Shown here piece after piece: positions 2,214 through 10,278 of a stretch of DNA of 10,396 nucleotides. Position numbers and translations under genes: made by a program. Origin of the DNA: Turicibacter sp. (GTDB taxonomy: Bacteria > Bacillota > Bacilli > MOL361 > Turicibacteraceae). A model generated the notes under the pieces. It ran no database searches and was not told the origin of the DNA. It saw only the letters and a list, made by a program, of their open reading frames with translations. How positions within the stretch are numbered: position 1 is the stretch's first letter; every line of letters starts with the position of its first letter. The DNA is taken from the NCBI GenBank assembly GCA_030531025.1, contig JAUMTV010000108.1, forward strand, positions 1 through 10,396, in the 5' to 3' direction.

Positions 2214-2332
2214 AGTGTCAAAATAACTATATAATGAAAGGTTTTAATCAGAAGTGTCAAAATATATTGATTGATAGTTAAAATGATGATACAATTTCAG
2301 TATCAAATTAAGTATAGTTTAAATGACACTTT
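2214..2332. other. Candidate res site for the serine resolvase
   Basis: A roughly 120-bp stretch directly upstream of the resolvase holds at least five copies of the half-site AGTRTCAWWWT. Forward copies are AGTGTCAAAAT at 2214-2224, AGTGTCAAAAT at 2253-2263 and AGTATCAAATT at 2299-2309. Reverse copies are TGTATCA (2287-2293) and AAAGTGTCATTT (2321-2332). This matches the usual design of a res site, in which several resolvase dimers bind degenerate inverted 12-mers next to the gene. The crossover subsite cannot be identified by eye. The promoter lies within the array, so autoregulation is likely. Confidence 0.65.
2267..2295 (+). promoter_or_regulatory. Promoter of the serine resolvase
   Basis: TTGATT (2267-2272) and TACAAT (2290-2295) are spaced by 17 bp and lie inside the repeated half-sites of the res-like region. 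Resolvase binding should therefore occlude the promoter, the standard autoregulatory arrangement in this family. Confidence 0.55.
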
Positions 2333-2343
2333 GGAGGTTTAAC

Positions 2344-3018
2344 ATGGCAACATATTTCTATTTACGTATCAGTACTAAAGAATCTAGTGATAGACAATCA
2401 TTTGCACGACAAGAGAAGTCGTTGAAAGCATATGCTGAATCTAATGATATTAAATATACAGTTCGCAATGTGTTCAAGGATGATATCAGTGGGTCAACGT
2501 TCGACAGAGCAGAATGGCTAGAGTTGGAATCTAATCTTAATGAGGGTGACACAGTTGTATTCAAAGAGATATCTCGCTTCACTAGACAAGCAGAAGCAGG
2601 GTATGAAAAGTATATGCAACTAATGAACAAAGGGATTAACTTAGTGTTCTTAGACAATCCCACCGTTTCAACCGACTACATTAGTCAATTAACATCAGTT
2701 GCTAACTCACAACAGTTAGTGACTAAGACAGCATTAGAAAGCACAATCAAGCTATTGTTAATCGTAGAACTAGACAGAGTACAACAAGAACGTGAGATAA
2801 TCGTCAAACGAATCAAGCAGGGGATTGAAGCTAGTGAGAAGAAGCAGGGTCGTAAAGTTGGACAACTCGATAAGATGTCAGATGGGTTAAGAGCAGATAT
2901 AATTGCATTCATTGGTGATAGAACAATCAAGCAAGTAGACCTTATGAATAAGCATAATATCAGTCGAAATACATTGAAGAAATATGTTGAGTTTGTTAAG
3001 GGTGAAAAAGACCATTAG
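2344..3018 (+). CDS. Serine recombinase/resolvase (small, with C-terminal HTH)
   Basis: This 224-aa site-specific recombinase belongs to the resolvase/invertase family. The N-terminal catalytic domain has the nucleophile Ser10 in YLRIST, with Arg8 just before it. It also has an ISRFTR motif near residue 70, equivalent to the active-site Arg loop of gamma-delta resolvase, and a long E-helix around 120-155. The C-terminal residues (about 180-222, SDGLRADIIAFIGDRTIKQV then NKHNISRNTLKKY) form a Hin-like helix-turn-helix for res binding. The ATG at 2344 has GGAGG (2333-2337) seven bases upstream; a possible earlier start is not supported. Its role is most likely resolution of plasmid multimers at the adjacent repeats. 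It duplicates in purpose the tyrosine recombinase, which may serve a different reaction. Confidence 0.93.
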   Translation: MATYFYLRISTKESSDRQSFARQEKSLKAYAESNDIKYTVRNVFKDDISGSTFDRAEWLELESNLNEGDTVVFKEISRFTRQAEAGYEKYMQLMNKGINLVFLDNPTVSTDYISQLTSVANSQQLVTKTALESTIKLLLIVELDRVQQEREIIVKRIKQGIEASEKKQGRKVGQLDKMSDGLRADIIAFIGDRTIKQVDLMNKHNISRNTLKKYVEFVKGEKDH

Positions 3019-4592: not shown

Positions 4593-4790
4593 GTGTCAAA
4601 GGCGAAAAAGAAACCGAAGAAAATGCCAAAGCAAGAGATCATTCGCTTGTTGTCACGACGACTAGACATCTCTCAAGAAGCTACCTCACTTGTCATTGAC
4701 ACAGTGCAAGGAGTTATCCTAGAGGCACTAGAAGATTACGACTCGGTAAAGTTTGGAGACTTAGTAGTTAATAGAGAGAATCATGAGTGA
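4593..4790 (+). CDS. Truncated HU/IHF-like DNA-binding protein
   Basis: This 65-aa protein starts at a GTG behind AAGGAGG (4579-4585). After a Lys-rich N-terminus (AKKKPKKMPK), residues 14-50 follow the HU helix-turn-helix dimer fold: an acidic helix with KQEIIRLLSRRLDISQEATS, then an amphipathic helix ending LEALEDYDSVKFG. The FGDLVVNRE end corresponds to the first beta strand of HU (the GFGNF region). HU proteins are about 90 residues. This one stops where the DNA-embracing beta arm with its proline tip would begin, and the next frames show no continuation, so it is not a simple frameshift. It may dimerise, or bind DNA through its basic tail, or modulate host HU. It heads the phage-like cassette. 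Confidence 0.7.
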   Translation: MSKAKKKPKKMPKQEIIRLLSRRLDISQEATSLVIDTVQGVILEALEDYDSVKFGDLVVNRENHE

Positions 4791-4800
4791 AACAATATAT

Positions 4801-5073
4801 ATTTTTAGCAAAAGTGTATTACCACTTGAAAGGATGTGATACAGATGATTCAAGCAAATCAAGAGTTCAGAAACTTAAAGCACCTATTGTATGTTCTCAA
4901 CATTGATTGTGAGTACAAAGGTGGCTATCAAAAGCAACTACGATTGAATAAAGCACAAAAGCAGTTAGCAGAACTAGGCTTACAAGCAGTACGTGTTGAC
5001 AGCTCACAAAAGTTAGTGATTAAAGCTATTGATTAAGGTCAGTAGTTTTTATTTTTAACCAAAAGTGTAATAC
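4801..5073 (+). repeat. Two copies of an intergenic ATTTTTARC-AAAAGTGTAWTAC element
   Basis: ATTTTTAGCAAAAGTGTATT (4801-4820, continuing AC) and ATTTTTAACCAAAAGTGTAA (5051-5070, continuing TAC) differ by one indel and two substitutions. Each lies just after a stop codon and shortly before the ribosome-binding site of the next small gene. They may be promoter, processing or regulatory elements of the cassette. Confidence 0.5.
4845..5036 (+). CDS. Unknown 63-aa small protein
   Basis: The ATG at 4845 is preferred over the in-frame GTG at 4836 because GAAAGGA (4828-4834) is about ten bases from the ATG but touches the GTG. The product is a basic, soluble alpha/beta peptide (NQEFRNLKHLLYVLNIDCEY, then GGYQKQLRLNKAQKQLAEL, then a short beta end VDSSQKLVIKAI). 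I recognise no family. Its size, spacing and placement between a HU-like gene and DUF5659-like genes are those of phage early or accessory genes. No signal peptide or membrane segment is present. Confidence 0.7.
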   Translation: MIQANQEFRNLKHLLYVLNIDCEYKGGYQKQLRLNKAQKQLAELGLQAVRVDSSQKLVIKAID

Positions 5074-5291: not shown

Positions 5292-5492
5292 ATGCAATAT
5301 CAAGATAAAAACCATTATGTCGTAAAGTCATTATACTTATGTCGATTCTTACAGAACAAAGGATTTGAGCTTAAGCGAGTAAAAATTAACAAGTTCAATC
5401 CCAAACACAATGTGTTCTTATTTGAGAATACAGATGAGCTACAACAAGCATTAACTGAATATCGTAAGATGAAAGAAGAAGCAGGGTACTAA
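5292..5492 (+). CDS. DUF5659-like small protein
   Basis: This 66-aa protein starts at the ATG behind AAGGAGGA (5277-5284); an in-frame upstream ATG at 5214 overlaps the preceding gene and lacks a site. The core HYVVKSLYLCRFLQNKGFEL, then RVKINKFNPKHNVFLFEN, then an acidic helix with EYRKMKEE, matches my memory of DUF5659. That small fold (a 'KS..LA..L...GF' helix and a NPK-NVF.F strand) is widespread in phages and mobile elements of Gram-positives, and its biochemical role is unknown. It closes the first four-gene transcription unit; its stop codon lies in the terminator stem. Confidence 0.8.
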   Translation: MQYQDKNHYVVKSLYLCRFLQNKGFELKRVKINKFNPKHNVFLFENTDELQQALTEYRKMKEEAGY

Positions 5493-5547: not shown

Positions 5548-6168
5548 ATGGCAAAGAAACAACAACAATCACAAGCATTAGAAGTATTATCAAAATTAGA
5601 TGGAGCTACATTAGAGAACCTATTGAACTTATTACAAGGTCAACAGGCTCAAGTAGTAGCAGATGCACCAGTAGAACAACCAAAGCAGGAAGTAGCACAG
5701 CCTAAACCAAAGGCAACTAAGGCTACATTATTCCAAGACCGTAACCGTCAAATAATCGTGCGTTCATGTATAGAAGGTCGAGTAATCTACAAGTCAAAAC
5801 GTTCGGGCATGACCTATAAATGGTTAGATAAAGGGGCTTATGAGGTCTTAACAGTAGAGGAATTGTTAAACATGGAATCACAAAGTCATAAGTTCTTACA
5901 TAGCCCATGGCTCATGGTGGATGACGAAGATATTATTGAAGCATTTAACCTAGCAGAACTGTATGATCTAGTAGCAAAAGTTGAAGACATTGACTCATTT
6001 ATCAATATGACACTAGATGAGCAAAAGCAGATTTACAACAAGTTACCTAAAGCATCACAAAATCAAGTGTACAATCACATCTGTTTCAAAGTAGACTCGG
6101 GGGAAATTGACAGTAGAGCTAAGATTCGTCAGCTTGAAGAACTCGTTGGCATGGAGCTTGAGTATTAA
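5548..6168 (+). CDS. Unknown 206-aa phage-like protein
   Basis: The ATG follows TAGGAGGAATTAACC at good spacing. Residues 1-30 form an amphipathic helix (ALEVLSKLDGATLENLLNLL), 31-58 a Gln/Pro/Ala/Lys-rich flexible linker, and 60-135 a compact domain. That domain has VRSCIEGRVIYKSKRSGMTY, KWLDKGAYEVLTVEELLNM and a WLMVDDEDIIEAF stretch. The rest is helical and charged. From memory the central domain resembles a protein found in large myophages of Gram-positive hosts and in related plasmids, sometimes listed as a virion-associated or hypothetical protein; this is weak recall. It is a monocistronic unit lying between two terminators. Its function is unknown. Confidence 0.75.
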   Translation: MAKKQQQSQALEVLSKLDGATLENLLNLLQGQQAQVVADAPVEQPKQEVAQPKPKATKATLFQDRNRQIIVRSCIEGRVIYKSKRSGMTYKWLDKGAYEVLTVEELLNMESQSHKFLHSPWLMVDDEDIIEAFNLAELYDLVAKVEDIDSFINMTLDEQKQIYNKLPKASQNQVYNHICFKVDSGEIDSRAKIRQLEELVGMELEY

Positions 6169-7241: not shown

Positions 7242-7322
7242 AAAAACCGACCAAGTTATCTGGTATATATAAATATTAATAGTATATATACTTATATATG
7301 CCATCTTATTTGGTCGGTTTTT
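7242..7322. terminator. Long bidirectional terminator-like hairpin before the candidate rep
   Basis: AAAAACCGACCAA (7242-7254) and TTGGTCGGTTTTT (7310-7322) are perfect 13-bp inverted repeats around an AT-rich 55-nt arm that can pair internally (ATATATAA-type tracts). Both strands end in a T-run. It lies 30 bp before the gene, so it either terminates leader transcripts or insulates the antisense promoter. Confidence 0.65.
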
Positions 7323-7352: not shown

Positions 7353-8696
7353 ATGATAGGTTTAACACGTGAAAGAAAACCACAGGTAAAAAAACAAACG
7401 ATTCAACAAGAAAAACTATTTGAGGGAAAAGTATTCAAGAATCATAGAGCAATGTGTGATGAGCTTGGATGGGAGTATATTGACTCGACAAATAGTAAGA
7501 AAGCTCAATTAAAGGTATTATCACAATATTGCGAATGGTATAAGCAAGGTCAAAAGATAATTATTGGGAAGGCACATGGGAATATCGGGCAAACAACTAA
7601 TTCATCACGTATGACAGAGAGTAAATTAATCAAGTTAGGAGTTCAATACAACCTCTTGAGAATTATGTTATCTGATTTAAATGAGGAAGATATTGAGATA
7701 CTGAATACAGGACAAGGGGAACTGTTGCATACGAATTACTTTGTGATGCCGACGTTGCAAAAGGCAACAGGATTAGTAGGTGATTATTACTATGTTAGTC
7801 GTCATCATCAAGAGCGAATAGCTGAGATTGAGGAGATGCCTGTTGAGCATGTGTACGACTTCTTTAATTGTACTCACAAGAAGATAACTCGCTACATAGC
7901 TGAATCACTTGAGGATTTAAAGAGTAAGCGACTATTGACATATAGTGAAACTAAGAAATTAACGTTTTCACGTATAGTGTTAGATGATGATGTAATAAAT
8001 AGATTGAAACGAACTAAAAAAGCTACAACTAAGCGAGTATATAGTTCTTCATTTGCTACTAAAGGTCAACTTGCATTCATTATGAAGTGCGAACGTGAAA
8101 TTATGGATAAATTTGGTTTAACAACATTCAATCAAATTTATAGTCGTTCAAAGAAGGAGCGTAAGAAGTTCTTTGCCCTATGTGTTAAGCAAATCAGAGA
8201 TAATGCTGAACGTTATGCTCGTGTAAGTGATGACGAAAGCGTTGCACAATTGAAGGATTTACATAAGTATGCTAAATGTTATGAAATGACCTTTGTTCCT
8301 AATTGGATACAAAAAGAAATGCAGCGAGTAAATAAACAATTAAGCAATGAGCAATCAAGTTTCATTGAGTTGTTGAATGCCCATACGTTTGAAGGTGTAA
8401 GCCATTTGCCCGTCGGTAATGATGTTCGAGAATATGTGAATGGTAAGAATGTTAAATCACTCAAGAAGAATGTACAGAGCCGACATAAGAACGCTAAAGA
8501 TGACTCCTGCCGAGTTAGTGAGACCTATGTTAGCAATGGCAATACTTTAGTAGATAATTATGTTGGTCGTTCTTGTGAAGGAGTACGTGAGAAACTTGAA
8601 GAGCATGGCTTAATTAAAAAGGCTGACTTTAAAATAGGTGATAGTGACGATATTGTAATGATAACCATTGAGGAAGTAGACCGTGACGTCGCATAA
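7353..8696 (+). CDS. Candidate plasmid replication initiator, 447 aa
   Basis: The ATG has AGGAG (7337-7341) eleven bases upstream. Residues 24-73 (GKVFKNHRAMCDELGWEYID through SKKAQLKVLSQYCEWY and KIII) form a module I recall from DNA-binding and replication-type proteins of Gram-positive plasmids and phages. Residues 165-207 (KKITRYIAESLEDLKSKRLL) look like a winged-helix unit, and 235-310 contain a basic helical region. No HUH, primase or polymerase motif is visible, so a rolling-circle mechanism is unlikely. The role as initiator is inferred from size, basic character, the attenuator/antisense leader and the position beside the partition gene; no other gene here is a better candidate. A large transcription regulator is the alternative. 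Confidence 0.55.
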   Translation: MIGLTRERKPQVKKQTIQQEKLFEGKVFKNHRAMCDELGWEYIDSTNSKKAQLKVLSQYCEWYKQGQKIIIGKAHGNIGQTTNSSRMTESKLIKLGVQYNLLRIMLSDLNEEDIEILNTGQGELLHTNYFVMPTLQKATGLVGDYYYVSRHHQERIAEIEEMPVEHVYDFFNCTHKKITRYIAESLEDLKSKRLLTYSETKKLTFSRIVLDDDVINRLKRTKKATTKRVYSSSFATKGQLAFIMKCEREIMDKFGLTTFNQIYSRSKKERKKFFALCVKQIRDNAERYARVSDDESVAQLKDLHKYAKCYEMTFVPNWIQKEMQRVNKQLSNEQSSFIELLNAHTFEGVSHLPVGNDVREYVNGKNVKSLKKNVQSRHKNAKDDSCRVSETYVSNGNTLVDNYVGRSCEGVREKLEEHGLIKKADFKIGDSDDIVMITIEEVDRDVA

Positions 8697-8705
8697 CATT
8701 CTTCG

Positions 8706-8748
8706 AGCTACTACATGAGCATGAGCTTGTGTGGTGGCTTTCTTATAA
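8706..8748 (+). terminator. Probable terminator after the candidate rep gene
   Basis: AGCTACTACA (8706-8715) pairs with TGTGGTGGCT (8730-8739) with two G-U pairs around a 14-nt loop, followed by the weak tract TTCTTAT. Confidence 0.55.
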
Positions 8749-8814
8749 AGAGGTATTATTCAAAAATGAGCAATAGCTAAGTAAAGGTTAAAAGTACTGA
8801 ATAACACAGCCATT

Positions 8815-8842
8815 TTGACTCTATCGTCACTTATACGATAAA
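8815..8842 (+). promoter_or_regulatory. Possible partition-operon promoter with internal operator
   Basis: TTGACT (8815-8820) and GATAAA (8837-8842) are 16 bp apart. The spacer contains the inverted repeat TATCGT (8822-8827) and ACGATA (8835-8840). CTATCGTCA recurs at 8900-8908. A protein bound there would block the promoter, fitting autoregulation by the HTH-bearing partition protein. The leader to the gene at 9056 would be about 200 nt. Confidence 0.4.
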
Positions 8843-8990
8843 AACAACTCATAAAAAAACACCGATAAATTCGGAATAAATCAAGGGTAGGTAGTAAAAC
8901 TATCGTCAGTAAATCCCTCAACATGATTACTTGCGTTAAAATTCGCATTTTACTGTCATTATAGGGTATGAAAAGTTCCGATTAATTCGG
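8821..8990. other. Candidate centromere (parC-like) repeat cluster
   Basis: Upstream of the partition gene two 13-mers, CCGATAAATTCGG (8862-8874) and CCGATTAATTCGG (8978-8990), differ by one base and have the palindromic form CCGA-N5-TCGG. CTATCGTCA occurs at 8821-8829 and 8900-8908, and GTCAGTAAA/TTTTACTGTC form a further inverted pair around 8905-8957. Clusters of this kind directly before an actin-type partition gene are the usual place for the centromere. Nothing resembling a gene is supported in 8750-9040. Confidence 0.5.
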
Positions 8991-9055
8991 TATTTTTGAA
9001 AATTGAGAAATGGGCTAATGCTCAATTTAATGAAATATATGGAGGATTGGTATTA

Positions 9056-10174
9056 ATGTTCAAATGGATTGATAAGATAAAGCAATTATTTAAGAAGCAA
9101 AAAACCACGATTAATAATAGTAGTAGTGATATTTTATATATAGATTTAGGAGCAAGTAGTATTAAAATGAGCTACAAGGGGAAGTTTATTACCTTCCGTT
9201 CTAGTGTACGTCAAGCAACAGATGAAGAAGTGACGTTCCAAGATAACAAGATTCTAGTGGATGGAAAATGGTATATCATTGGTGAATCAAGTCAACCAAC
9301 GGGAACGTATCAATATAAGTATATGAAAGAAAATCTACATGTGTTGGTTCTGTATGGATTGCAACTACTTGAGTTTAAGCAGGATGAAGCTCAGCTACAT
9401 GTACTGTTGCCTTACGGTGAGCTAGGAACTACTAAGGAGTTACGGACAAAAATGTCCAACCAATATCAACTACATGATGCTAAGGTGAAGTTACAAGTGG
9501 CAAAAGTTTATGTAGAAGGTGAATCAAGTAAGCACTACATCAATAATAAGCTCAAGTTGAAAGGTAAGAATGTATGTGTAGTGAACATTGGATATTCAAC
9601 TACTGATATTGCATTATTTAGTAGCCAAGGATATAGAGAGAAAATGGTGTCGGTGTCAATGGGAACTAATGCGCTATTGTCGGAAGTAGTTGGTCATACT
9701 CAAGCACCTACAAGCTCAATTCTTAACGCATGGCTAGTAGATGGTTATAAGTTTACTAAGGATGAGCAGTTAAAAGTGAGTAGTGTCACAAGTAGATTCT
9801 TGAGTATGATTAAAAGTGATTTAGAGTCAACGGTGTTTAAGGTAGCAAATCCTCAGAATCTGATAATTGTGTGGTGCGGTGGCGGTAGTCAGTTGGTACA
9901 TAGTGAAATTGATAAGGTATTCAAAGGCTACTCATGTAAGGTGTTAAATGTAGAAGACTCTATTTATACAGACCTTAAGGGGATGATTGAGCTACATAAT
10001 CCCGCTAATGATGATGAGAAAGTATTGACTAAAGAAGAACGTGAGCAGAAGATAATCGAGTTAAAGGCTCAAGGTTATAAGAGTAAAGAGGTGGCTCAAA
10101 TGGTGGGATGTAGTGAGTCAACGGTTAATAACTTTATGACTAAATGGAATAAATCAAATGGAAATGCGGCTTGA
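9056..10174 (+). CDS. ParM-family actin-like ATPase fused to a C-terminal HTH
   Basis: This 372-aa protein starts at the ATG behind GGAGG (9041-9045); the in-frame TTG at 8996 lacks a site. Residues 1-16 (MFKWIDKIKQLFKKQK) are a basic amphipathic helix, then a Ser/Asn linker. The actin-like core has phosphate-1 DLGASSIK (30-37), phosphate-2 VVNIGYSTTDI (175-185) and adenosine motif IIVWCGGGSQLV (270-281), the ParM/Alp7 pattern. Position 177 is Asn where family members normally have the catalytic Asp. Residues 323-372 form a helix-turn-helix (EEREQKIIELKAQGY, KSKEVAQMVG, SESTVNNFMTKWNK). Family members polymerise to push plasmid copies apart and use a separate ParR adaptor; none is evident here, so this protein may bind its own centromere. 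Confidence is high for the fold, moderate for the one-protein model. Confidence 0.88.
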   Translation: MFKWIDKIKQLFKKQKTTINNSSSDILYIDLGASSIKMSYKGKFITFRSSVRQATDEEVTFQDNKILVDGKWYIIGESSQPTGTYQYKYMKENLHVLVLYGLQLLEFKQDEAQLHVLLPYGELGTTKELRTKMSNQYQLHDAKVKLQVAKVYVEGESSKHYINNKLKLKGKNVCVVNIGYSTTDIALFSSQGYREKMVSVSMGTNALLSEVVGHTQAPTSSILNAWLVDGYKFTKDEQLKVSSVTSRFLSMIKSDLESTVFKVANPQNLIIVWCGGGSQLVHSEIDKVFKGYSCKVLNVEDSIYTDLKGMIELHNPANDDEKVLTKEEREQKIIELKAQGYKSKEVAQMVGCSESTVNNFMTKWNKSNGNAA

Positions 10175-10207: not shown

Positions 10208-10237
10208 TTGACAAAGGCGGTTATCCTTATTTATAAT
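10208..10237 (+). promoter_or_regulatory. Strong SigA-type promoter reading toward the tyrosine recombinase
   Basis: TTGACA (10208-10213) and TATAAT (10232-10237) are separated by 18 bp, so both hexamers are perfect consensus. The predicted start, near 10244, lies on the first of two GAAATGGAAC repeats, which suits repression by a protein binding there. On the circular map the transcript would run about 290 nt across the contig junction to the recombinase start codon at 176, with no gene in between. Confidence 0.75.
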
Positions 10238-10242
10238 TACCG

Positions 10243-10278
10243 ATGAAATGGAACATACTTTTAAAAAGGAAATGGAAC
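10243..10278 (+). repeat. Pair of direct GAAATGGAAC repeats
   Basis: ATGAAATGGAACAT (10243-10256) and AAAAGGAAATGGAAC (10264-10278) share the core GAAATGGAAC and lie about two helical turns apart, at the predicted start of transcription. The second copy has an exact 15-bp inverted match at 129-143. They may be operator sites, recombinase arm sites or iterons; the sequence does not decide. Confidence 0.6.

Follow-up and report, generated by a model that had tools for sequence, protein, structure and literature searches.

Can a plasmid be maintained by a single actin-like protein that carries its own DNA-binding domain? The question is raised by a gene on a 10,396-nucleotide stretch of DNA from Turicibacter sp. 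(GenBank assembly GCA_030531025.1, contig JAUMTV010000108.1; hereafter the window), the first 42 bases of which are identical to the last 42, making the replicon a circle of 10,354 bp. The open reading frame (ORF) at 9056–10174 (+), which begins with ATG, encodes a 372-residue protein that joins an actin-like domain to a C-terminal helix-turn-helix (HTH), while in the actin-based plasmid systems of the papers cited here the motor and the DNA adaptor are two separate proteins. As far as sequence can tell, this actin-HTH fusion is real, conserved, and undescribed in the searches that we made. The reading that we favor, and to which we give an even chance, is that the protein is a one-protein plasmid maintenance factor acting as a membrane tether or scaffold rather than as a pushing spindle of the ParM type.

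The ORF that a first-pass annotation had singled out for its actin signature is present and bears that signature, with the Pfam family ALP_N matching residues 29–144 (4.6e-8) and PHROG 691, a ‘partition protein’ family, matching residues 25–310 (4.1e-23). AlphaFold2, which supplies the structure prediction proposed there as a check, models an actin fold at residues 27–313 (9134–9994, +) followed by a three-helix HTH at residues 326–367, and a Foldseek/VIA comparison of residues 22–320 only, the HTH lying outside it, finds a ParM-like actin fold whose nearest solved neighbors include ParM and Alp proteins. All three nucleotide-binding motifs claimed for the ParM/Alp7 family can be found. The phosphate-1 motif DLGASSIKM spans residues 30–38 (9143–9169, +), with Asp30, Gly32 and Lys37 in 59 of 61 family proteins and gaps in the other two; the adenosine motif GGG spans residues 275–277 (9878–9886, +), with Gly276 and Gly277 in 60/61 (one gap) and Gly275 in 51/52. 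The phosphate-2 motif NIGYSTTD (residues 177–184; 9584–9607, +), identified from family and control alignments, has Asn for the usual Asp. The HTH (10031–10156, +), previously placed at residues 323–372, is matched by HTH_23 (3.6e-7, residues 326–367) and GerE (7.2e-7) in Pfam, and its modeled helices at 326–338, 343–350 and 354–367 have block values of the predicted local distance difference test (pLDDT) of 81–90 over residues 331–370 and 72 over 321–330.

Protein searches return 60 database relatives (51, then 6, then 3 more) in three clades, with BLASTP identities to the window protein of 81–91% (clade 1, one member of which is labeled a Turicibacter sanguinis metagenome-assembled genome, so that Turicibacter is the probable host by this route too), 39–47% (clade 2, which includes Clostridium records) and 35–40% (clade 3). 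Mean identity, computed from alignment A3 with 16, 28 and 7 proteins for clades 1, 2 and 3, is 88, 48 and 42% in the actin domain and 81, 33 and 24% in the HTH, and the linker between the two ranges from 11 to 70 residues. The actin-HTH fusions that the first-pass annotation had suggested looking for do occur: 57 of the 61 proteins have residues in the HTH column, in every case with an invariant Thr, and 4 have gaps there, including the partial record P0050. Outside clade 1, Pfam matches to HTH families are weak and fall under the curated cut-offs, with none at all in P0044, P0051, P0060 and P0061; PHROG 3855, an HTH DNA-binding family, matches 41/52 members. AlphaFold2 gives the clade-3 protein P0056 the same order of parts, namely a helix at 2–15, the actin fold, a low-confidence linker and HTH helices at 351–360, 365–372 and 376–392 (mean pLDDT 79). 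We rejected a chimera or assembly artefact because the relatives show this same order, and an actin-domain tree places 12 family members as monophyletic against 19 ParM controls (support 1.0, stem 1.89). Within clade 1, the HTH tails (alignment A1) fall into roughly two types in helices 1–2, exemplified by KAQGYKSKEVAQ.LG and K.EGHKNSEIAK.LG, and a few tails mix the two; residues 352–362 are identical across both types, and tail exchange is possible.

Nucleotide searches add little to this picture. With the window protein and P0033 as queries, tblastn finds no match in 72,556 plasmid and 50,697 phage records (E limits 1e-3 to 1e-2), nor does P0056 match the phage records at E up to 5. Pattern scans of IMG/VR for actin-HTH relatives, and likewise a scan with the 447-residue neighbor, yield none that is confirmed, and scans of GTDB contigs return nothing or a single locus (L001) that matches residues 283–357 only, in an ORF ending, by eye, in a LuxR-like HTH. 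Phage G gp506, considered as a known actin-HTH protein, was rejected: it aligns over 366 columns without the HTH tail and overlaps its 129-residue neighbor gp505. A literature search for single-protein actin-HTH systems gives none among the matches listed, most subscription journals and bioRxiv preprints being outside its scope; the matches listed for CorM are all unrelated.

One feature that sets the family apart from ParM lies in the phosphate-2 motif, where the catalytic Asp is replaced by Asn177 (codon 9584–9586): Asn is found in 61/61 family members and Asp in 19/19 controls, which comprise gp506 and 18 of its tblastn matches (12 from 129 phage and 6 from 1612 plasmid records), hand-chosen for diversity. 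Comparison of the family profile with Cbc-ParM aligns Asn177 directly with the Cbc-ParM Asp; gp506 also has Asp at this position, which itself aligns with Asp in pCBH ParM, Dh-cParM1, pSK41 ParM and Bacillus thuringiensis ParM. Counting along the gp506 alignment, the pSK41 ParM equivalent is Asp190, which would correspond to Asp170 of R1 ParM. PMC3794156 names Asp170 and Glu148 as catalytic residues of R1 ParM, and according to PMC4911067 equivalent mutations in R1 ParM and AlfA abolish the ATPase but not polymerization. Glu156, at the aligned position of the catalytic Glu, is conserved in 61/61 members. Judged as a type II site, the nucleoside triphosphatase center is not intact: Asp30 and Glu156 are kept, but the phosphate-2 Asp is replaced. 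Because the catalytic Asp is Asn in every member, ATP-driven dynamics are doubtful.

At the other end of the protein, residues 1–16 (9056–9103, +) form a predicted cationic amphipathic helix, likely a membrane anchor judging from a moment and shuffle test and the AlphaFold2 model. The best 18-residue N-terminal segment, residues 3–20, has a moment of 0.63 and a net charge of +5, reached by 1 of 300 shuffles, and a significantly amphipathic, mostly cationic N-terminal segment is found in 38 of 52 members when at most 15/300 shuffles are allowed to reach the segment. Residues preceding phosphate-1 number 29–37 in 12 family members versus 5–32 in the 19 controls, and those following the actin domain 56–116 versus 1–29. 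The ATG lies 10 nt 3' of a putative Shine-Dalgarno sequence, GGAGG (9041–9045, +); an in-frame TTG at 8996 would give a 392-residue reading. These features bear on whether the protein is a one-protein type II motor, dynamic with ATP or GTP despite Asn177, that holds a centromere by its HTH and separates plasmids by pushing or pulling. We regard this as unlikely: the ParM-like fold, the conserved Glu156 and the fusion of the HTH to actin would all suit such a motor, but the family-wide Asn, where every control has Asp, does not, and a likely membrane helix in 38/52 members is ill-suited to a cytosolic spindle.

A separate adaptor, ParR, is not recognizable beside the gene, in keeping with the first-pass annotation. 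The only frames of at least 30 residues, counted from start to stop codon, from 10175 around the circle to 176 are a 35-residue + strand frame at 10248, which by eye lacks a Shine-Dalgarno sequence, and two − strand frames of 38 and 57 residues; the next gene, a tyrosine recombinase of the integrase type, begins at 176, ~355 nt on. In all 18 annotated control ParM loci a co-directional ORF starts −50 to +145 nt from the ParM stop, one of these ORFs being annotated as an exonuclease and most of the others only presumed candidate ParRs. None of the 18 matches any of 143 window frames in phmmer at E 10 (the frames were made from the joined ends and a few are counted twice), a weak result as many of the 18 also miss each other, and Pfam scans of 12 window ORFs return no ribbon-helix-helix (RHH) family. 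Sequence searches cannot exclude a ParR on the replicon because ParRs diverge so fast, and an ordinary ParM whose ParR lies elsewhere on the replicon or acts in trans, with an HTH that merely autoregulates, could draw on this divergence and on several small unassigned ORFs (4593–4790, 4836–5036, 5292–5492 and 5548–6168). A 2025 survey also reports that ParR seems to be missing from some ParM cassettes on chromosomes (PMC12270681); the terms ‘helix-turn-helix’ and ‘fusion’ are absent from its main text. With no adjoining ORF, no RHH match and no hit to the control ORFs, we consider a hidden ParR very unlikely.

What, then, might the HTH bind? Two palindromes stand just upstream of the gene, as had been noted before: CCGATAAATTCGG at 8862–8874 and, 116 bp beyond it, CCGATTAATTCGG at 8978–8990, both candidate operator or centromere sites. 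Their shared pattern, CCGA-N5-TCGG, occurs at 8862 and 8978 and nowhere else in the window, and in 2000 shuffles of the intergenic DNA a repeated GC-rich palindrome with 4-bp arms never arises. A single inverted repeat, TATCGT-N7-ACGATA (8822–8840), whose half site CTATCGTCA recurs at 8900, could be due to chance.

Intergenic palindromes just ahead of the protein's gene would also suit a nucleotide-sensing transcription regulator that represses that gene and perhaps replication genes, with plasmid stability not its job. In ROK repressors an HTH is joined to an actin/sugar-kinase fold; the HTH here resembles LuxR and homeodomain types, one relative (P0005) is named ‘LuxR C-terminal-related transcriptional regulator’ by NCBI, presumably from the HTH alone, and Asn177 would fit a sensor that does not hydrolyze. 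This explanation is nevertheless improbable, since the protein matches ALP_N and a family of phage partition proteins, while ROK is absent from its 22 Pfam matches, the HTH is C-terminal whereas that of ROK proteins is N-terminal, the amphipathic helix is left without a role, and no promoter-like site is found ahead of the gene on the + strand.

In the tether or scaffold that we favor, the C-terminal HTH, as a dimer or as an array on an actin-like oligomer, would bind the two palindromes that precede the gene, so that the protein does the work of a ParR-like adaptor for itself and probably also represses its own expression. Nucleotide binding and assembly would fall to the actin domain, with slow or no turnover given that the catalytic Asp is replaced by Asn, and the N-terminal helix, made multivalent through assembly, would hold the complex at the membrane, an attachment that may need oligomerization by analogy with RocS. 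Plasmid copies would then sit in membrane-bound foci at set positions, to be divided between the daughter cells. The analysis itself shows the predicted fold, the order of domains, their conservation, the exchange of Asp for Asn, no recognizable ParR and the repeated palindromes; from there we infer DNA binding, assembly, membrane binding and plasmid stabilization alike. The minimal segregation machine that the first-pass annotation envisaged retains its fusion, its conservation in a family, the lack of a recognizable ParR and the upstream palindromes; it is the Asn in 61/61 and the likely membrane helix that do not accord with it, and a spindle is a poorer fit than a DNA tether anchored in the membrane.

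Several observations weigh against this reading. Three proteins (P0017, P0018 and P0049) end, on inspection, before or within the HTH and so lack an intact one. The AlphaFold2 helix at residues 2–14 of the window protein has pLDDT <50, and 14 of the 52 members have an N-terminal segment that misses significance: the whole of clade 3 (7 proteins), P0048, and six clade-1 proteins, a few of these six with annotated starts upstream of the likely start; P0002 passes on a segment from a start that is probably misplaced upstream. Four of the 19 controls have 20–32 residues before phosphate-1, and the N-terminal extension is therefore not unique to the family. In pSK41 ParM, D190A removes filaments altogether (PMC4911067), and Asn177 could therefore abolish assembly rather than turnover. 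The palindrome has only two copies, 17 of 200 whole-window shuffles hold at least two matches to CCGA-N5-TCGG when one mismatch is tolerated, and a tandem-repeat search of the window finds no clear iteron or centromere-like array. Autoregulation is without a visible target because no sigma-70-like promoter is found on the + strand from 8650 to 9056. Lastly, as no relative's DNA was found, the evidence for a missing ParR and for the palindromes comes from a single replicon.

Elsewhere on the replicon, an Rfam search of the window gives no match and a single-strand fold of the region 3' of the actin-HTH gene gives no signal (z 0.98). Just 3' of this gene, a 12/12 consensus sigma-70 promoter, TTGACA-18-TATAAT (10208–10237, +), reads across the circle junction toward the tyrosine recombinase, in a scan whose sites are overall about as many as in shuffles. 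Repeats of GAAATGGAAC lie at 10245 (+), 10269 (+), 129 (−) and 4476 (−, one mismatch), three of which flank the stretch that leads up to the tyrosine recombinase; 0/200 shuffles contain as many copies, and they are possibly recombinase or origin sites. The replicon encodes two recombinases, tyrosine (176–1126) and serine (2344–3018), and the DNA at 2216–3000 is 75% identical to the uncultured-bacterium plasmid HG796307.1. A 65-residue HU/IHF-like protein (4593–4790, +) falls short of the length of its family profile (PF00216, 1.8e-4, just under the cut-off; phrog_379, 6.3e-7). The 447-residue gene at 7353–8696 (+), which we would guess to be a replication initiator, matches phrog_36702 (4.9e-23); its protein has a sole plasmid relative (22%), encoded within a phage-like part of Bacillus velezensis pDMB05-1, and finds no match among phage records. 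A long inverted repeat (7242–7322), with 40-nt arms that are 80% complementary, lies just 5' of that gene.

We do not class the actin-HTH protein as ParMRC because two defining features, the catalytic Asp and an adjacent ParR, are missing, and it may still serve the same end. A more tentative proposal, which we think somewhat doubtful, is a new partition class in which filament, centromere binder and membrane anchor are one protein, a static scaffold of actin permanently without its catalytic Asp. The family's fixed Asn sits at a residue whose mutation kills the ATPase in standard systems; if the proposal is true, a static actin scaffold could serve the inheritance of DNA, the need for filament dynamics in segregation becomes testable, and actin-type partition is linked to membrane-tether systems such as RocS.

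Set beside known systems, the window protein shares with type II ParMRC (R1 ParM, pSK41 ParM, Alp7A, AlfA, Alp12 and Cbc-ParM) an ALP-type actin fold, as modeled, and the phosphate-1, adenosine and catalytic Glu elements, and differs in its C-terminal HTH, its Asn for Asp, its predicted N-terminal amphipathic helix and the lack of a recognizable ParR. ParA is a Walker ATPase that acts with ParB; unlike ParA with an N-terminal DNA-binding domain, the window protein is an actin with no partner seen. TubZRC-TubY (type III) is likewise a polymer-based plasmid system, and its TubY binds membrane and DNA according to PMC7762940, but it uses a tubulin fold and three proteins where here there is one. 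RocS of Streptococcus pneumoniae and pSK1 Par are each a single segregation protein with a DNA-binding domain, such as the HTH predicted here; RocS also has an amphipathic membrane helix, of the kind predicted here, which needs oligomerization (PMC11500499), but it self-associates by a coiled coil where the window protein would do so through its modeled actin fold (residues 27–313), and the order of domains is reversed.
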